Positions 37,718-46,391 of a stretch of DNA of 56,390 bases are shown here, piece by piece; positions within the stretch are counted from its first letter, which is position 1; every line of letters starts with the position of its first letter. The position numbers and the translations under genes are program-made. Under the pieces are notes generated by a model. The model was not told the DNA's origin. It searched no databases and worked only from the letters and a program-made list of their open reading frames with translations. Location: positions 1 to 56,390 of the forward strand of contig JAIBBJ010000017.1 in NCBI GenBank assembly GCA_019694735.1, in the 5' to 3' direction. The DNA is from Gemmatimonadaceae bacterium. Lineage in GTDB: Bacteria > Gemmatimonadota > Gemmatimonadetes > Gemmatimonadales > Gemmatimonadaceae.

Positions 37718-39468
37718 GGCCTTTTGTTGCCGGTATCAGAACCACGAATGGCGCGCTGTACGGCCTCGAACGATCCACCCGGGGTTCGCCCTTTCCGCTT
37801 CGAAAGCTCCGCCACCAGCTCCGCTCGCGTCGGCAGCATCGGGCGAGGCGCGTCCCACAGGATCAGGCCCTGGATGCGCCGCCCCGTCCCCTGAAGCCGA
37901 GTGACATCGGCGAGCAGCGCATCGATCGAGCGCTCCCCCACCACCGCCGTCAGCACGGCCGGCCCCGGGCCCGCCAGCGACGACGCGGCACCGATCTGCT
38001 CGAGCGGGGACAGCACCAGCGTGAGCTCGAAGGAGGACGCGAAGCGCGCGAACTCCTCGGTCGTCACGGCGTCGATGGCGGCATCCGCGACGCGGTCGCC
38101 GCCCGGTGGGAGCATGGTGATGGGCAGGCCGTCGCTTGAGCCGACCGGACGCGCCACCTCGCGCCAGGAGAACGTACGCCCCAGCACCTCGTGGACACCG
38201 GGCTCGATGCGCTCACGGAACGTCCGCGACAACGAGGCCTCGCCGGAGTCGAGATCGGCGATGAGCGTGCTGCGATGGTCCGCGGCGGCGGCGATCGCGA
38301 GCCGTGCGCCGACCGTCGCGACGACCTCCGCGTCGCCGCCGCTGACGATCGCGCTTCGCGTCCGCGTGCCCGTCGCGGTGAGGCCGAGGTACAGCATGCG
38401 GAATGGATCCACCCCGGTCGGCTTGAAGCGCGCTGGCCCATCGATCGGCACCTCGCGCACCACGCTGAGGACGCGCAGTCCGGTCAGGCGCTCGGCCTCC
38501 GCGACCCCCGCCAGTGTGGGTGCCTCCCACTCGCTCCGCAGCGCCGTGCCGAAGCCAACGGCCAGTCCGACGAGGAGCACGGCCGCGAGGGCCAGGGCCG
38601 GGAGGAAGTCCACGAGCTCCGACCGTGCGGTGCGGTCGGTCGCGGACGCGGCATTCGCGGCGGCTACTGTGCGCGCCGCGGCGACCAGCGAATCGTGCAG
38701 TCTGCGGAGACGGGCCACGGTGTCGCGCGCCGCGGCGAGCGCGCCTGCGGGCGCGATGGTATCCACGCTCACCGGTACAGCGCGGACGGGCGCCGCGGGC
38801 GCGGGAGGCGCGGGAGGCGCGGACGCACCCCCGGCGGGACCCGATTGGGCCTCCAGTTCCGCGCGACGATAGTCCGCGATCGCCACGATCGTCCGACCGA
38901 CCCGGCCGATCGCCTCGGTGAACGGTTCCGCCGCCCCCGCCATCCGACGCGCATCCTCCAGTCGCCGGAGCGAGTCCGCCAGCGCGCGCATGCGAGGCCC
39001 TGCCTCGACGAGCGGGTGTGCGGCGACGTGGCGATAGCCTTCGGCGCTGCGCGCGGCGCGCGCCGACAGGATGCGCTGCGCGAGGTCCGCCAGATCCGGC
39101 GTGGCGCCGGCACTCGGCGAGGCAGGGCGGGGCAGCGGTGCTGCGATCGGACGGAGGGCCGCATCACGGCTCGCGACCATCAGCGATTCGGCGGTCGCGA
39201 GCGTGTTCTCGGCCGCGCGGACACGCTGCGCGCTCCGCAACGTGTCGATCATGACCGTGTCGAGGGCCGCCCGGACCCCGGGGTCCGCCGCACGCGGTAC
39301 GAGCGCCGAGACGGTGGCGAGCGTCGTGAGCGTGCCGACCACGACGCTCCACCGCACCATGAAGCGCCGGCTGCGGCGCGCCGCGAGGGAGGCGCGTGCC
39401 GACAACCAGGCGCCGCCCGTGCGCGCGGTCGCGAGCGGTGGTGGGGAGGGGGAGGGGGCGTCCGACAT
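37714..39468 (-). CDS. Wzz-like polysaccharide copolymerase fused to a degenerate BY-kinase (CpsD/ParA-like) domain
   Basis: 584 residues from ATG 39468. TM1 at 39-58 and TM2 at 288-308 flank a long periplasmic helical region, the topology of Wzz/chain-length determinants. The cytoplasmic C-terminus (~365-580) looks like a BY-kinase/ParA fold: SAIVSGGDAEVVATVGARLAIA, then STLIADLDSG (Walker A') and LTLVLSPLEQIGAA. The Walker A position lacks GK[ST] (GGDAEVV), so nucleotide binding is probably weak or lost. There is no Tyr cluster at the C-terminus. Role in exopolysaccharide export or length control is inferred. Confidence 0.6.
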   Translation of the reverse strand: MSDAPSPSPPPLATARTGGAWLSARASLAARRSRRFMVRWSVVVGTLTTLATVSALVPRAADPGVRAALDTVMIDTLRSAQRVRAAENTLATAESLMVASRDAALRPIAAPLPRPASPSAGATPDLADLAQRILSARAARSAEGYRHVAAHPLVEAGPRMRALADSLRRLEDARRMAGAAEPFTEAIGRVGRTIVAIADYRRAELEAQSGPAGGASAPPAPPAPAAPVRAVPVSVDTIAPAGALAAARDTVARLRRLHDSLVAAARTVAAANAASATDRTARSELVDFLPALALAAVLLVGLAVGFGTALRSEWEAPTLAGVAEAERLTGLRVLSVVREVPIDGPARFKPTGVDPFRMLYLGLTATGTRTRSAIVSGGDAEVVATVGARLAIAAAADHRSTLIADLDSGEASLSRTFRERIEPGVHEVLGRTFSWREVARPVGSSDGLPITMLPPGGDRVADAAIDAVTTEEFARFASSFELTLVLSPLEQIGAASSLAGPGPAVLTAVVGERSIDALLADVTRLQGTGRRIQGLILWDAPRPMLPTRAELVAELSKRKGRTPGGSFEAVQRAIRGSDTGNKRP

Positions 39469-39535
39469 CGCGGTGAAGTATCGCCAGCCGAAGCCGTTGA
39501 CGCGACGCATCGTGCGGGCGGCACGACCGCAGACG

Positions 39536-39564
39536 TTGACCGCGACCGTGCCGCCCATTACGGT
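39536..39564 (+). promoter_or_regulatory. Predicted his operon promoter
   Basis: TTGACC (39536-39541), 17 bp, then TACGGT (39559-39564). Start would be near 39571, so the leader peptide ATG at 39574 is almost at the 5' end of the mRNA. Confidence 0.5.
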
Positions 39565-39573
39565 TCACTCACG

Positions 39574-39660
39574 ATGTCATCCCTCCGCCACCATCACGCG
39601 CACCATCGCCACGGCCTGACGGGCCGGGGGATGTCGGCGCACGCGGAGACCCGGGCCTAG
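39574..39660 (+). CDS. hisL: Histidine operon leader peptide
   Basis: 28 codons ending in TAG at 39658. Codons 6-13 read HHHAHHRH, that is six His in eight, with one more His at codon 23. The frame lies between the divergent Wzz-like gene and hisG, has no other plausible function and is followed by an attenuator-type terminator (39688-39720) before hisG. The His runs are where a ribosome would stall when charged tRNA-His is scarce. No ribosome-binding site is visible; the transcript may be nearly leaderless. Confidence rests on the combination of His run, position, terminator and complementary arm. Confidence 0.8.
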   Translation: MSSLRHHHAHHRHGLTGRGMSAHAETRA

Positions 39661-39711
39661 CCGCCCTCGCGACGCCTGCTGGCCCCCGACCCGTCCCCCT
39701 CCGGACGGGTC
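39618..39711 (+). promoter_or_regulatory. Histidine attenuator: antiterminator arm and terminator 5' arm
   Basis: Segment 39618-39630 (GACGGGCCGGGGG), just after the His codons, is complementary at 12 of 13 positions to 39683-39695 (CCCCCGACCCGTC; one C-A mismatch). The latter contains the 5' arm of the terminator GACCCGTCC (39688-39696), so the two structures are mutually exclusive. Stalling on His codons would leave the upstream arm free to form the antiterminator. Confidence 0.75.
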
Positions 39712-39720
39712 TTTGCGTTT
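39688..39720 (+). terminator. Intrinsic terminator in the his leader (attenuator)
   Basis: Stem GACCCGTCC / GGACGGGTC with a 6-nt loop, followed by TTTGCGTTT. It lies after the leader peptide stop and 36 bp before hisG, so it must be bypassed for operon expression. Confidence 0.85.
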
Positions 39721-39755
39721 CCCGGCCGCGCTTCGCTCCGATCCCTTCGATCCCC

Positions 39756-40628
39756 ATGCTCCGTCTCGCCATCCCCAACAAGGGTCGCCTCAACGAGGAC
39801 ACCCGCTCCCTCCTCGCCGACGCGGGCCTCGAGGTCCGCGCCTCCTCCGAGCGCGCGCTCGTCGCGTCGCTCGGCGGCGAGTTCGAGGCCATCTTCGTCC
39901 GGGCGCAGGACATCCCCGAACTCGTGGCCGATGGGTCCGCCGACGCCGGGATCACCGGCTGGGACCTCGTGCAGGAAGCCTCGCGGCCGCTGGAGTCGCT
40001 CCTCGACCTCGGCTTCGGCCGCTGTCGCCTCGTCGTCGCGGCCCGCGACGAGAGTGGCATCCGCACGCTGGCGGACGTCCCGGACGGCGCGCGCGTGGCG
40101 ACCGTCTTCCCGCGTGTGACCGAGCGATTCTTCGGGTCACGCGACCGGCGCGTCGAGCTGGTGCCGGTCTCGGGCGCGGTCGAGGTGGCGCCACACCTCG
40201 GCATCGCCGACATCATCCTCGACCTCACCTCCACGGGCTCGACACTGCGGGTGAACGGCCTGCGTGAGGTCGCGACGGTGCTCGAATCCACGGCGCATCT
40301 CGTGACGGCCGGGGCGGCGAGCGGCCGCGCGCCCTCCGCCGATCGCCGGCGCGCACTTGACGACCTCGTCGCGGCGCTGCGGTCGGTGCTCGCGGCCCGC
40401 GGCCAGCGCTACGTCATGGCGAACGTGCCCCGCGCGCAGCTCGAGGCGGTGCGGCGCATCCTGCCCGGCATCTCCGGACCGACGGTGATCGACGTGATGA
40501 ACGGCGGCTCGAAGGTCGCGGTGCACGCGGTCTGTCCAGCGGACGGGATCTACCGCACGCTCAACGCGCTGAAGGCGGTCGGCGCCGAAGGGATCCTCGT
40601 CACCCGCATCGAGCGGCTGCTGCCATGA
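39756..40628 (+). CDS. hisG: ATP phosphoribosyltransferase (long form)
   Basis: 290 residues. First and committed step of histidine synthesis (ATP + PRPP). Landmarks: LRLAIPNKGRLNEDT, GITGWDLVQE, the PRPP loop DIILDLTSTGSTLRVNGL and a C-terminal ~75-residue ACT-like regulatory domain (MANVPRAQLEAVRRILPG). The length and C-terminal domain are those of the long HisG, which binds histidine for feedback inhibition and needs no HisZ. It is the first structural gene after the leader attenuator; ATG 39756 has no clear Shine-Dalgarno. Confidence 0.95.
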   Translation: MLRLAIPNKGRLNEDTRSLLADAGLEVRASSERALVASLGGEFEAIFVRAQDIPELVADGSADAGITGWDLVQEASRPLESLLDLGFGRCRLVVAARDESGIRTLADVPDGARVATVFPRVTERFFGSRDRRVELVPVSGAVEVAPHLGIADIILDLTSTGSTLRVNGLREVATVLESTAHLVTAGAASGRAPSADRRRALDDLVAALRSVLAARGQRYVMANVPRAQLEAVRRILPGISGPTVIDVMNGGSKVAVHAVCPADGIYRTLNALKAVGAEGILVTRIERLLP

Positions 40629-41932
40629 GCGCCCTCCGGTTCGCCTATCGCGGCGCCGCTTCGGCCCTCGACGCGGCCGCACGCGCGCGCGTCTTCGACC
40701 GCGCGACGTCGGGCGATGCCGCGCTTCGCACGCGCGTCGCCGCGCTCCTCGCCGAGGTGCGACGTGACGGGGATGCCGCGCTCCGCCGGTTCGCCGAGCA
40801 CTTCGATGGCGCGCGGCTCGACGCGCTCGAGGTCCCGCGCGCCGAATGGACCGCAGCGCTCGAGGCCCTCGACCCGGACCTGCGCCGCGTGATGACGCGG
40901 GCGGCCGCGAACATCCGGGACGTGCACGCCGCGTTCCGGCCCGTCGCGCGCGAGACGGTGACGGCGGACGGGGCGGTCATCGGCCGCCGCCCGGACCCGC
41001 TGTCCCGCGTCGGCGTCTATGCACCCGGCGGGCGCGCCGCCTACCCGAGTTCCGTCCTCATGGGCGCGGTCCCGGCACGTGTGGCCGGGGTCGGCGAGGT
41101 GATCCTCTGCTCGCCGCCGGGCGCGGACGGACGACCGAGCGCGGTGGTGCTCGCCGCGGCCGCACTCGCCGAGGTCGATCGTGTCTTCGCGATCGGCGGC
41201 GCCGGGGCGATCGCCGCGATGGCATACGGGACGGCGAGTGTGCCGATGGTGGATCGCATCGTCGGACCCGGCAATGCGTACGTGGCCGAGGCGAAGGCGC
41301 AGGTGGCGAGCGCGGTCGCGATCGACTCGCCGGCGGGCCCGAGCGAGCTGCTCGTGCTCGCCGACGCGACGGCTGACGCGACGGTGCTCGCGCGCGAGCT
41401 GGTCGCGCAGGCCGAGCACGATCCGGTTGCCGCGGTGGTGCTCGTGACGGATGCGCCGGCGCTCGCCGACGCGGTCGTCGCGGCACTCGCCGCCCGCATC
41501 GACGCGGAGCCGCGGGCGGCGATCGTGCGCGATGCGCTGGCGGCCCGCGGCGCGATCGTGATCGTCGACACCCTCGACGCGGGGATCGCGTTCTCGAACG
41601 CGTGGGCCCCCGAGCACCTGCTGCTGGTGGTCCGACGCGAGGCGGAGCAGGGCATCCTCGACCGACTGCGGCACGCCGGCACGATCTTCGTGGGGGCGCA
41701 GGCCAGCGTCGCATTCGGGGACTATCTGAGCGGCGCGAACCACGTGCTCCCGACGGGCGGCGCGGCGCGCGGGTACTCCGGGCTCTCCACGCTCGATTTC
41801 GTGCGCTGGACCACCTACCAGCGCATCGGCCCGGCGACTGCCGCGGCGCTCGCCGACGACACGGGGCGCTTCGCTGACGCGGAAGGGCTGCCCGGGCACG
41901 CCGCGGCCGCCCGCCAGTGGAGCCGCCGATGA
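40625..41932 (+). CDS. hisD: Histidinol dehydrogenase
   Basis: 435 residues; ATGA overlap with hisG. It oxidises histidinol to histidine in two NAD-dependent steps at a zinc site. Landmarks: RVGVYAPGGRAAYPSSVLM, IAAMAYGTASVPMVDRI, GPGNAYVAEAK, DSPAGPSELLVLAD, EHLLLVV, GANHVLPTGGAARGYSGL, and conserved His residues near EHDP and EHL. Full-length. Confidence 0.96.
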   Translation: MSALRFAYRGAASALDAAARARVFDRATSGDAALRTRVAALLAEVRRDGDAALRRFAEHFDGARLDALEVPRAEWTAALEALDPDLRRVMTRAAANIRDVHAAFRPVARETVTADGAVIGRRPDPLSRVGVYAPGGRAAYPSSVLMGAVPARVAGVGEVILCSPPGADGRPSAVVLAAAALAEVDRVFAIGGAGAIAAMAYGTASVPMVDRIVGPGNAYVAEAKAQVASAVAIDSPAGPSELLVLADATADATVLARELVAQAEHDPVAAVVLVTDAPALADAVVAALAARIDAEPRAAIVRDALAARGAIVIVDTLDAGIAFSNAWAPEHLLLVVRREAEQGILDRLRHAGTIFVGAQASVAFGDYLSGANHVLPTGGAARGYSGLSTLDFVRWTTYQRIGPATAAALADDTGRFADAEGLPGHAAAARQWSRR

Positions 41933-42981
41933 CATCGATCCTGCGCCCGGGACTCGAGCAGGTCACCGCGTACGCGCCGGCGCCGGTCGACGGCCTGACG
42001 CTCGACCTGCGGGACAACGTGAACCTCTGGGGCGCGCCCCCGACCGCGCTGGCTGCCGTGCGTGGCGCCGCTGCCGCGGCGCTGCAGGAGTATCCGGCGG
42101 TCAGCGGCGGCCCGCTCGTGCTGGCGCTCGCGGCGCACCTCGGCGTGCGCCCCGACGAGATCGTCGTCGGCTGCGGCAGCGACGACCTCATCGATGCCTG
42201 CTTCCGCGCGGTCGCGGCGCCGGGGGAGCGCGTCGCGCATCCGGCCCCGAGCTTCTCGATGGTGCCGCGCTTCGCGCGTCTCAATGGCCTCGAGCCCGTC
42301 GGCGTGCCGCTGCGGCCGGATGGCGCGGCCGACATCGATGCCATGCTCGCGACGGGCGCGCGCATCCTCTACCTCTGCTCGCCGAACAACCCGACGGGCA
42401 CGTTGACGCCGGAGACCGAGCTCCGGCGCTGCATCGCCGAGGCGCCTGGCATCGTCGTGCTCGACGAGGCGTACGCCGAGTTCGCGGGCACGCGCGACTG
42501 GCGCGCCGAGGCGCCCGGGATGGAACGCGTGCTCATCCTGCGCACCTTCTCGAAGGCGTGGGGACTGGCCGGGCTCCGCGTCGGCTACGGCGTCGGCTCG
42601 CGCGCGCTCGTCGACGCCGTCGTGCGCTCGCGCGGGCCGTACAAGGTCAACGCGCTCGCCGAACGGGCGGCGACCGCGGCCGTGCGCCATGACGAGGCGT
42701 GGATGCGCGCCGCGGCGGCGGAGGCGGCCGAGTGCCGCGCGCGGCTCGATGGGCTCGTGCACGGTCGGCGTGGGGTTCGCGCGTGGGCGTCGGCGGGGAA
42801 CTTCGTCTTCTGGCAGGTGGACGGGAACGCCGACGCGCTCGCGGCGCGCTTCGCGGCCGCTGGCATCGGCGTGCGCGCCTTCCGCGCGCTGCCCGGCATC
42901 GGCGATGCGCTCCGCATCGGCGTGGCGCCCTGGCCGGCGCTCGAACGCCTGATTCCCGTCATCGAGGCGGCGTGGCCCTGA
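41929..42981 (+). CDS. hisC: Histidinol-phosphate aminotransferase
   Basis: 350 residues from ATG 41929 (ATGA overlap with hisD). PLP fold type I enzyme that forms histidinol phosphate. Landmarks: CGSDDLIDACFRAVAAPGERV, LCSPNNPTGT, VLDEAYAEFAG and the PLP lysine in LRTFSKAWGLAGLRVGYG, plus the C-terminal Arg region LRIGVAPW. An in-frame ATG 12 bp earlier lies inside hisD and is not favoured. Confidence 0.95.
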   Translation: MTSILRPGLEQVTAYAPAPVDGLTLDLRDNVNLWGAPPTALAAVRGAAAAALQEYPAVSGGPLVLALAAHLGVRPDEIVVGCGSDDLIDACFRAVAAPGERVAHPAPSFSMVPRFARLNGLEPVGVPLRPDGAADIDAMLATGARILYLCSPNNPTGTLTPETELRRCIAEAPGIVVLDEAYAEFAGTRDWRAEAPGMERVLILRTFSKAWGLAGLRVGYGVGSRALVDAVVRSRGPYKVNALAERAATAAVRHDEAWMRAAAAEAAECRARLDGLVHGRRGVRAWASAGNFVFWQVDGNADALAARFAAAGIGVRAFRALPGIGDALRIGVAPWPALERLIPVIEAAWP

Positions 42982-43601
42982 TGCGGATCACGCTCTTCGA
43001 CTACGGCGCGGGCAATCTCCACTCGCTCGCCAAGGCGCTCGCTGGTCCGGGGCGCGCGGTGCAGGTGGAGCCGGACCCGGTCGCGGCCTGCGACACCGAT
43101 GTCCTCGTGCTGCCCGGCGTCGGGGCGTTCGGCCCGGCGGCGGCGCGGTTGGCACCGGGACGTGAGGCGATGCGCTCCGCCGTCCGGGCCGGCCTCCCGA
43201 CGCTCGGCATCTGCCTCGGCATGCAACTGCTGTTCGACGGCAGCGACGAGGGGGACGGGCTCGGGCTCGGGCTCGTCGCCGGCCGCGCGACACGGCTCGC
43301 CGCCGCGCGCTTGCCGCAGATCGGCTGGAACTCGATCGACGACGCGACCGGCGGTGCGCCCGACGCCCTGTTCGCGTCCAGCGGCCTCACGATCGCATAC
43401 TACGCCAACAGTTTCGCCTGCCGCCCGGACGATCCCGCCATCGTCACGGCGTGGTCGGTGCATGAGACCGATCGGTTCGCGGCGGCGGTGCGTGTCGGCG
43501 CATGCGTCGGCGTGCAGTTCCACCCGGAGAAGAGCAGCGCCCCGGGCCTCCGTTTCCTCGATCACTTCCTGCGGACCGCCGCGCGCGGCCGTGTGCCCTG
43601 A
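42981..43601 (+). CDS. hisH: Imidazole glycerol phosphate synthase, glutaminase subunit
   Basis: 206 residues; starts on the last base of the hisC stop (TGATG). Class I glutamine amidotransferase triad: Cys in GICLGMQLLF, and His/Glu in GVQFHPEKS. It provides ammonia to HisF. The N-terminus (ITLFDYGAGNLHSLAKAL) is typical. HisF is encoded separately three genes downstream. Confidence 0.95.
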   Translation: MRITLFDYGAGNLHSLAKALAGPGRAVQVEPDPVAACDTDVLVLPGVGAFGPAAARLAPGREAMRSAVRAGLPTLGICLGMQLLFDGSDEGDGLGLGLVAGRATRLAAARLPQIGWNSIDDATGGAPDALFASSGLTIAYYANSFACRPDDPAIVTAWSVHETDRFAAAVRVGACVGVQFHPEKSSAPGLRFLDHFLRTAARGRVP

Positions 43602-43607
43602 GACCCC

Positions 43608-44321
43608 ATGCTCGCCATCCCCGCCATCGACCTCCGAGACCGCCACTGCGTGCAGCTGGTAGGCGGCGAGTATGACGCCGAATCGGTGCGCCTCGACGAC
43701 CCCGTCGCCGTCGCGCGCCGCTGGGCCGCCGCCGGCTTCACCCGGCTGCACGTCGTGGACCTCGACGCGGCCACCGGCCGCGGCGACAATCGCGATCTCG
43801 TGCGCGAGCTGCTGCGCACCGTCACGCTGCGGATCCAGGTCGGCGGCGGCGTGCGGGATGACGACGCGCTCAATGGGTGGCTGGACGAGGGGGCCGAGCA
43901 GGTCATCATCGGCACCCGGGGCGTCGAGGATCCGTCCTGGCTCCTCGAACAGGCGTCGCTCGCGCCCGGCCGCCTGATCCTCGCCGCCGACGTGCGCGAC
44001 CGCTCCGTGGTCTCGAAGGGCTGGACCGCCCGCACGAAGCGTCGCCTGCCCGACTTGATCGCCGAGCTGCGTGACGCGCCCTTGGCCGGACTGCTGGTCA
44101 CGGCCGTCCACAAGGAGGGGAAGATGGAGGGTACGGACCTGCCCCTGATCGAGGAGGCCGTCGGCGACTCCCCGTGGCCGGTGCTCGCCTCGGGCGGTGT
44201 CGGCACCATGCAGGACCTGCGGAACCTCGAGGACCGCGGCGTCGCGGCGGTCGTGCTCGGGATGAGCCTCTACACGGAAGCGCTCGACCCGCGGGTCGTC
44301 GCCGAGGAGTTCGCCCGATGA
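43608..44321 (+). CDS. hisA: ProFAR isomerase
   Basis: 237 residues, (beta/alpha)8 barrel. It isomerises ProFAR to PRFAR. Landmarks: IPAIDLRDRHCVQLVGGEY (catalytic Asp8), VVDLDAATGRGDN, IQVGGGVRDDDAL, and the second phosphate site ASGGVGTMQDL. It starts 6 bp after hisH and overlaps hisB by ATGA. Confidence 0.95.
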   Translation: MLAIPAIDLRDRHCVQLVGGEYDAESVRLDDPVAVARRWAAAGFTRLHVVDLDAATGRGDNRDLVRELLRTVTLRIQVGGGVRDDDALNGWLDEGAEQVIIGTRGVEDPSWLLEQASLAPGRLILAADVRDRSVVSKGWTARTKRRLPDLIAELRDAPLAGLLVTAVHKEGKMEGTDLPLIEEAVGDSPWPVLASGGVGTMQDLRNLEDRGVAAVVLGMSLYTEALDPRVVAEEFAR

Positions 44322-44869
44322 GCGCGTCACGGACGGCGGTGCGCGAGCGGCGCACGGCCGAGACCACGGTGCGCGTCGAGGCGCGGCTCGGCGCGGGCAT
44401 CGCCGATGTGCGCACGACGGTGCCCTTCCTCGACCACATGATGACCGCGCTCTCGCGCTATGCGGGCATCGACCTCACCATCCGCGCCGAGGGCGACCTG
44501 CGGCACCACATCATCGAGGACGTCGCGCTGACGGTGGGCCCGGCGATCGCGGACGTGATCCCCGCGACGGCCGCCCGCTACGGCGAGCGCACCGTGCCGA
44601 TGGACGAGGCGCTCGTGCAGGCGGTCCTCGATGTCGGCGGGCGCCCGTTCTACGAAGGCCCGATCCCGAGTTCGCTCTACGAGCACTGGATGCGGTCGTT
44701 CTGTGACGCGGCGAAGTTCACGCTGCACCTGCGGGTTCTGCGCGGTGAGGACCGGCATCATGTGGTCGAGGCCGCCTTCAAGGCGCTCGGCTTCGCGCTG
44801 CGCCAGGCCGCGGTGGACTCGGGCGCGGTGTTCTCCACCAAGGGCGCCGTGGCGATGGAGGCCCGATGA
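44318..44869 (+). CDS. hisB: Imidazoleglycerol-phosphate dehydratase (monofunctional)
   Basis: 183 residues, dehydratase only; there is no N-terminal phosphatase domain of the E. coli type. Metal-binding His/Glu motifs: [26 protein letters not shown] and [12 protein letters not shown]. The missing phosphatase activity is supplied by hisN downstream. Coupled by ATGA to hisA and hisF. Confidence 0.95.
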
Positions 44870-45633
44870 CGCTCACACGACGCCTGATCGTCTGCCTCGA
44901 CGTGCGGGACGGCCGCGTGGTGAAGGGCGTCAACTTCACCGGGCTGCGCGACGTGGGCGACCCGGTGGCCCTCGCCACGCGCTACGAGGACGAGGGGGCC
45001 GACGAGATCACGTTCCTCGACATCTCGGCCACCCAGGAGGCGCGCGCGACGCTCCTCGACCTCGCACAGCGCACCGCCGAGCGTCTCTTCATCCCGCTCA
45101 CGATCGGCGGGGGCATCCGCTCGGTGGACGACATGGCGGCCGCGCTCCGCGCCGGCGCCGACAAGGTGAGCGTCAACTCGGCGGCGGTGCGCGACCCGTC
45201 ACTCCTGACGCAGGGCGCGACGCGCTTCGGGGCCCAATGCATCGTCGCAAGCATCGACGCGGCGTGGGACGGCGCACGCTTCCGCGTGTTCACGGCCGGC
45301 GGCCGCACCCCGACCGACCTGGATGCCGTGGCATGGGCCCGCGAGTGCGTGCAGCGCGGGGCCGGCGAGATCCTGCTGACCAGCATCGATCGCGACGGAC
45401 GGCGGGACGGCTATGACCTCGCGCTCACGCGCGCCGTCGCCGACGCGGTGGACGTGCCCGTCATCGCATCGGGCGGGGCGGGGAGCGCCGCGCATGTCTG
45501 CGCCGCCATCACCGAGGGCGGCGCGGACGCCGCCCTCGTCGCCGGCATCCTGCACGACGGCGAGACGACGGTGGGGGCGCTCAAGGCCGCGATGCGCACC
45601 GCGGCCCTCCCGGTGCGCGAGGCGGCCGCATGA
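44866..45633 (+). CDS. hisF: Imidazole glycerol phosphate synthase, cyclase subunit
   Basis: 255 residues, (beta/alpha)8 barrel paired with HisH. It cyclises PRFAR with ammonia to imidazole glycerol phosphate and AICAR. Landmarks: [18 protein letters not shown] (catalytic Asp), [32 protein letters not shown] and [15 protein letters not shown] overlap with hisB and hisN. Confidence 0.96.
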
Positions 45634-46391
45634 GCGTCAGCCTGCTCGAGTCGGTGCAGGTGGTGGCGCGGACCGCCGGGGCGGTCGCGCTCGCACACTA
45701 CCGCACGGCGTTGACGGTCGAATCGAAGGGCGACGGGTCGCCGGTCACCGTCGCCGACCGCGAGGCCGAGCGCGCCGCGCGCGCGTGGCTCGCCGAGCGC
45801 TTCCCGGCGGACGGCATCCTCGGCGAGGAGTTCGGCGCGACCGCGGGCACCAGCGGCCGACGCTGGCTCCTCGACCCGATCGACGGCACCAAGAGCTTCG
45901 TGCGTGGCGTGCCGCTGTGGGGAACGCTGGTCGCGGTGGTCGAGGGCGAGCGCGTGCTGGCCGGTGCCGCGTGCTTCCCGGCGGTCGATGAGCTCCTCGC
46001 CGCCGCTCCGGGCGAGGGCTGCTGGTGGAACGGCCGCCGCACGCGCGTCAGCACGGTGGAGGCGCTCACTGCCGCGACGGCGCTCGTGACCGACGACCGG
46101 ACGTTCGCAACCCCCGAGCTGACCGCCGGCTGGCGCCGACTCGCCGCCCAGGTGGGCGTGGCCCGCGGCTGGGGCGATTGCTTCGGCTACCTGCTCGTCG
46201 CGACCGGGCGCGCCGAGGTGATGGTGGATCCGATCATGAATCCGTGGGATGCGGCCTGCTTCCAACCGATCATCGAGGAGGCCGGCGGCGTGTTCACCGA
46301 CCTCACGGGCCGACGCACGGCGTTCGGCGGCAGCGTGATCGCCACCAATGCCGCACTCGCCGGCGCGGCGCGGGAGTGCTTCGATGCTTGA
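45630..46391 (+). CDS. hisN: Histidinol-phosphate phosphatase, inositol-monophosphatase type
   Basis: 253 residues of the IMPase superfamily: [21 protein letters not shown], the metal motif [19 protein letters not shown] and the second motif [15 protein letters not shown]. Its location inside the his operon, beside a dehydratase-only HisB, identifies the substrate as histidinol phosphate. ATGA overlap with hisF; its stop overlaps the hisIE start by 8 bp. Confidence 0.92.

Follow-up and report, generated by a model that had tools for sequence, protein, structure and literature searches.

The 56,390-nt window analysed here, a stretch of a Gemmatimonadaceae genome, carries upstream of hisG an element that, to judge from its sequence and from its counterparts in related genomes, is very probably a ribosome-mediated transcription attenuator for histidine. 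It has the parts that define this class of regulators, namely a leader open reading frame (ORF) with codons matching the downstream pathway, an intrinsic terminator and an alternative antiterminator helix incompatible with it (Table 1). An earlier note, made from the letters of the window, had read the region as a histidine attenuator, and the comparative data support this reading, as leader, arms and terminator recur in the same order and with the same spacing in relatives.

Table 1. Features of the hisG leader region and of the operon behind it (positions in the window).
Feature	Position	Strand	Basis or details
Predicted promoter	39536..39564	+	TTGACC 39536-39541, 17-nt spacer, TACGGT 39559-39564; sequence and placement in relatives
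Leader ORF	39574..39660	+	ATG 39574, stop TAG 39658-39660, 28 codons + stop, peptide MSSLRHHHAHHRHGLTGRGMSAHAETRA
Regulatory codons, six His in eight	39589..39612	+	Sequence and chance test
Region 1, 5′ arm of the 1:2 hairpin	39598..39617	+	Includes the final three His codons of the run; core GGCC 39613-39616 conserved
Region 2, loop and 3′ arm of the 1:2 hairpin	39618..39640	+	39618-39630 doubles as antiterminator arm
Region 3	39683..39696	+	Terminator 5′ arm 39688-39696 plus flank pairing with region 2 in the antiterminator
Intrinsic terminator (3:4)	39688..39720	+	GACCCGTCC 39688-39696, loop, GGACGGGTC 39703-39711, then imperfect T tail TTTGCGTTT
hisG (ATP phosphoribosyltransferase), first operon gene	39756..40628	+	TIGR00070, 210.7 bits against a cut-off of 75.75
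hisD, hisC, hisH, hisA, hisB, hisF, hisN-type histidinol-phosphatase	40625..46391	+	Overlapping or a few nt apart

The 28-codon frame with six His codons in eight lies exactly where it had been described, and it is far above chance expectation. Its regulatory His codons start at 39589, 39592, 39595, 39601, 39604 and 39610, with an extra one at 39640; in all six frames of the window, the run from 39589 is the only stretch of eight codons with at least six His, and none of 60 dinucleotide-model simulations contained one. Among 110 hisG upstream regions from Gemmatimonadaceae, 106 possess a His-rich leader, counted wherever a short frame held three or more His within ten codons, so the frame, whose absence from relatives would have spoken against the earlier reading, is close to universal in this family. 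The four exceptions comprise a region whose contig end falls within the leader but leaves the His run visible (L008), one in which the visible run is broken by two Ns (L058, on the same contig as L183), one that is cut ahead of the leader (L061) and a sole region without a His-rich leader (L105). Arms and terminator occur in similar spacing in 107 of the 110 regions. In most cases GGCC..ACGGGYCG comes after the last His codon, and GGCCCGTCC-loop-GGACGGGCC-TTTTT another 60-90 nt on.

Within the leader peptide, conservation is highest in the His run, and this argues against a T-box, a riboswitch or a protein-bound leader as the histidine sensor with the His frame being incidental. T-boxes and the HisR repressor do govern his genes in other phyla (PMC9413887); here, neither the window nor any of nine related loci yielded an Rfam family at its gathering score, T-box models included, and we consider sensing of this kind extremely unlikely. 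The Chloroflexi-1 match obtained in a permissive Rfam scan of 39500-39780, at 16 bits of the 80 required, was dismissed as chance.

Turning to the RNA, the minimum-energy fold of the window pairs 39598-39617 with 39621-39640, and the conserved core of this 1:2 hairpin (39598-39640) is the small CGGCC/GGCCG hairpin at 39612-39626 to which the earlier note had already pointed. The antiterminator joins the arm GACGGGCCGGGGG (39618-39630) to CCCCCGACCCGTC (39683-39695), with 12 of 13 positions paired and a mismatch of C39624 with A39689; both this arm and the terminator proved to be at the coordinates originally assigned to them. Because the folding energy of the region is unremarkable (z -1.05), the case is built on conservation rather than on stability. 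RNAalifold, given 61 diverse sequences, returned exactly the 1:2 and 3:4 hairpins, unprompted. Their pairs are formed in 95.7% of cells, compared with 24-53% when the helices are slid, and both-side changes occur in 28 cells as against 6.1 in shuffles, none of 500 shuffles being as high. The 2:3 helix is likewise retained, with 87.1% of cells paired versus 28-48% when slid, and in permutations its whole arms form stronger duplexes with their own partners than with swapped ones (0 of 5000 as strong; shared ancestry was left in for the permutation tests). In single lineages both partners have changed, L056 combining GGCGGGCC with GGCCCGCC and L022 GCCGGG with CCCGGC. Covariation of 2:3, however, does not exceed that of shuffles (about 53 of 500 as high), since region 3, which is nearly invariant and tied to two partners, barely varies. 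The expectation of the earlier note that the His runs and paired arms would hold up in alignments is therefore borne out for the runs and for the strongly covarying 1:2 and 3:4 hairpins, while for the two antiterminator arms, whose lack of covariation it had regarded as damaging, the pairing is preserved with little covariation.

A GC-rich 3:4 hairpin with a T run is found in nearly all relatives, approximately 20-100 nt upstream of hisG; in the window, the gene upstream is encoded on the opposite strand, so the terminator is not that of the upstream gene. The near universality of this hairpin bears on a translational variant of the model, in which the leader and its alternative structures would gate the hisG start, instead of or besides transcription. 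Some attenuators do work in this way (PMC9413887), and a strong Shine-Dalgarno core is rare at hisG (5 of 106 genes); nevertheless, the conserved terminator and the upstream regions of the relatives, in which no conserved arm was seen at the hisG start, render such a variant very unlikely. Transcription attenuation remains our preferred reading.

When the alignment was lengthened to take in the entire His run, RNAalifold produced no usable consensus, probably owing to varying codon numbers; permutation and synonymous recoding were therefore used to test the extended 1:2 hairpin. In pairing with the downstream arm, the native His arm outperforms swapped arms (0 of 5000, again with shared ancestry left in), and the native codons outperform synonymous recodings that keep the peptide (0 of 200). 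From these two results, selection for RNA pairing is visible in the codon choice of the His arm. Similar long hairpins fold in other relatives. Among the points that weigh against the attenuator reading are the distance from the stop codon to the hairpin end, which varies widely across relatives (median 5 nt; 10-90% range, -12 to +22), and the imperfect T tail of the terminator in the window.

From these conserved parts we infer ribosome stalling, an order of folding, a leaderless start and a response to histidine, which together would operate as follows. Transcription would begin at or near the leader AUG, a ribosome would load on the nearly leaderless message, and the nascent RNA would fold the 1:2 hairpin, with His codons in its 5′ arm. 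When histidine is short, the ribosome would wait at a His codon, covering region 1 and leaving region 2 free to pair with region 3 ahead of the synthesis of region 4, so that no terminator forms and hisGDCHABFN is transcribed. With ample histidine, the ribosome would reach the stop at 39658, past the hairpin end (39640) and ahead of region 3 (39683); 1:2 would refold behind the fast ribosome, 3:4 would form, and transcription would end around 39711-39720. Termination would also be the default in the absence of translation.

Folding with the ribosome masking the His codons, a check put forward in the earlier note, raised 2:3 pairing as this scheme predicts. In our equilibrium model of 104 sequences, with the RNA ending before region 4, mean 2:3 occupancy increased from 0.45 without a ribosome to 0.79-0.80 with a ribosome at the first or middle His codon, and in the window it rose from 0.09 to 0.84-0.86. 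The fold switch is thus obtained for the first and middle His codons and not for the last, at which the ribosome covers part of region 2 and the occupancy is 0.00.

How the antiterminator is prevented in histidine-replete cells, given that a ribosome at the leader stop would sit between the two arms, had been raised as a difficulty from the outset. The ordinary footprint of a ribosome at this stop spans approximately 39642-39670, clearing the hairpin without reaching region 3, and the longer 1:2 hairpin largely answers the objection. Part of it stands, as a stop-held ribosome still favours 2:3 at equilibrium (0.84 in the window, before region 4 exists). Termination in the replete state would hence have to rest on kinetics: 1:2 would form first, and RNA polymerase would need only about 15 nt more to make region 4. 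A rapidly formed blocking structure is one of the two routes to low basal read-through described by Elf and Ehrenberg (PMC1183508).

The start of the leader message is predicted at about 39571-39574, coinciding with the leader AUG, from the promoter spacing, and not downstream of 39696, where it would have been at odds with the earlier reading. In nearly all relatives, a TTGAC-17-TAnnnT promoter ends 5-10 nt upstream of the leader AUG; with a score of at least 8 of 12 as the criterion, a promoter whose -10 element ends 4-11 nt upstream of the leader start was found in 93 of 106 relatives, compared with 9 of 1058 shifted anchors. A Shine-Dalgarno core at the leader start is present in only 4 of the 106. 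Because the promoter ends so few nucleotides before the AUG in nearly all relatives, the message is probably leaderless, with transcription beginning at the AUG or a few bases off. The leader ORF is where it was first seen, with the correction that its translation probably needs no ribosome-binding site. At hisG starts, too, a 4-nt Shine-Dalgarno core at -16 to -4 is found in only 5 of 106 relatives, and translation initiation in Gemmatimonadaceae may often proceed without this element. On the minus strand, the longest frame of the divergent gene starts at 39558, within the his promoter; if the gene instead began near 39468 (MSDAPSPS...), the intergenic region would be a normal one.

According to profile scores of the downstream genes, the order of the operon behind the leader is hisGDCHABFN, hisC, hisA and hisB being assigned as best matches below strict model cut-offs. 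The closest hisG relatives of the genome are from named Gemmatimonadaceae.

The leader codons change with the downstream genes. A second match of our covariance model R1 in the same genome (L222, G000:C212:4053-4160, minus strand) precedes a DAHP synthase gene and encodes a Phe/Tyr leader, MLRHHATVFYFSCFAPTPTGPGAGTARD; across DAHP synthase loci, a Phe/Tyr-rich leader was found in 27 of 30, e.g. MTRAQSYAYYYYYTTHTTGRSWRTR, with the promoter just upstream of the AUG. Tyr-rich leaders with the same terminator design stand before biopterin-dependent aromatic amino acid hydroxylases (L230, L231 and L232), a class of enzymes able to convert phenylalanine to tyrosine. In one genome, a Thr-rich leader, MTNAAIRTTGTTTTTTTRLTGRGRECLRR, and a terminator precede aspartokinase (L245, approximately 400-630), a single case. 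Candidate Trp leaders before trpE (13 loci) and leuA leaders (3 loci) were not convincing. Since the codons match the pathway, His before hisG and Phe/Tyr before DAHP synthase, leader codon identity is, in the sequences compared, the best single argument for ribosome stalling as the signal.

The same observations bear on the notion that the product is a functional His-rich peptide, for example a metal-binding one of the HHHAHH type, next to an unregulated terminator. Its His content is indeed very high. Nonetheless, the remaining residues track the RNA arms (the region 2 sequence codes for TGRG), the choice among synonymous codons is fitted to the hairpin, the sister element at DAHP synthase carries Phe/Tyr instead, and the leaders stand ahead of the matching pathway, all of which make a functional peptide very unlikely.

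Across the phylum, R1 matched 182 of 395 Gemmatimonadota genomes at E <= 0.01, the weakest of these matches including false positives and other attenuators. Among the rejected matches, L236 lies within coding sequence and L246 has the appearance of coding sequence. In f5, a family of the same class as Gemmatimonadaceae, a His-rich leader precedes 24 of 30 hisG genes. Outside the phylum, R1 matches hisG upstream regions of Myxococcus, Corallococcus, Pyxidicoccus, Hyalangium and Archangium (53-67 bits) and of two Eisenbacteria (65-78 bits), the M. xanthus leader reading MLFASLHHHHAHHRLGPDGTVRHAHAWVRR. The hisG attenuator loci from these lineages, Myxococcaceae/Archangiaceae and Eisenbacteria, are L125, L131, L152, L162, L170, L172, L173 and L180. 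In the hisG tree, which is unrooted and of unsettled inner order, Gemmatimonadaceae share a group (100/99) with these Myxococcota and Eisenbacteria to the exclusion of the Gemmatimonadota families f4 and f5; given this grouping, hisG probably moved together with its attenuator.

Taken further, these data raise the prospect of one leaderless design with the core GGCC / ACGGGYC / GGCCCGTCC / GGACGGGCC, phylum-wide in Gemmatimonadota, retuned by exchange of the codons in the run (His before hisG, Phe/Tyr before DAHP synthase and before an aromatic amino acid hydroxylase, perhaps Thr before aspartokinase) and moved with hisG between Gemmatimonadaceae, Myxococcaceae and Eisenbacteria, a proposition on which our judgement is evenly balanced. 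The attenuator reading would extend his attenuation, reported from Proteobacteria and, in candidate form, from some Firmicutes, to Gemmatimonadota, Myxococcaceae/Archangiaceae and Eisenbacteria, through an RNA absent from Rfam. It predicts that regulatory ORFs in these bacteria start without ribosome-binding sites, and the His-codon arm would provide an example of synonymous codons under RNA selection. For annotators, unannotated leader peptides can be found in this way in a little-studied phylum, and M. xanthus, with the same element ahead of hisG, offers a tractable organism for testing. The earlier note knew of no such attenuator for this lineage; indeed, our search of the open-access literature returned no relevant paper on histidine or leader-peptide attenuation in Gemmatimonadota, which is not a basis for claiming priority, and the class itself is wider than the lineage, reaching Myxococcota, Eisenbacteria and other Gemmatimonadota families.

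Ribosome-stalling his attenuators are well known in Proteobacteria. With the his attenuator of E. coli and Salmonella (hisL, RF00514), the element shares a leader ORF with His codons, mutually exclusive hairpins and an intrinsic terminator before hisG, as well as, in its proposed mechanism, attenuation as the main control with low basal read-through (PMC1183508). Unlike that system, it is probably leaderless, and it gave no match to the His_leader model RF00514 in the window; its own genome holds a sub-threshold match elsewhere only, and 1 of 14 control genomes exceeded the cut-off. Its antiterminator arm, moreover, lies inside the leader ORF with the stop codon beyond it, so that a stop-held ribosome leaves the core of region 2 uncovered, and RNAalifold revealed no conserved counterpart of the extra Salmonella hairpin. 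The candidate attenuators predicted by comparison in some Firmicutes, with 3-5 consecutive His codons (PMC9413887), resemble ours, in a comparison by description, in having a His leader, a terminator and an antiterminator, and differ in lineage. As regards the start, the closest likenesses are Sinorhizobium trpL, in which the 5′ end of rnTrpL is at the ATG and ribosomes read it as a leaderless message (PMC7298713), and the mycobacterial polycysteine ORFs, leaderless regulatory ORFs without Shine-Dalgarno sequences (PMC9031893). Compared by description, these resemble the present element in that its regulatory ORF, too, probably opens the message and is read without a Shine-Dalgarno sequence; they differ in using Trp and Cys codons and in belonging to other phyla. 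The mechanism is a known one; what appears new is the RNA family, together with the lineages in which it occurs and its coupling to a probably leaderless start.
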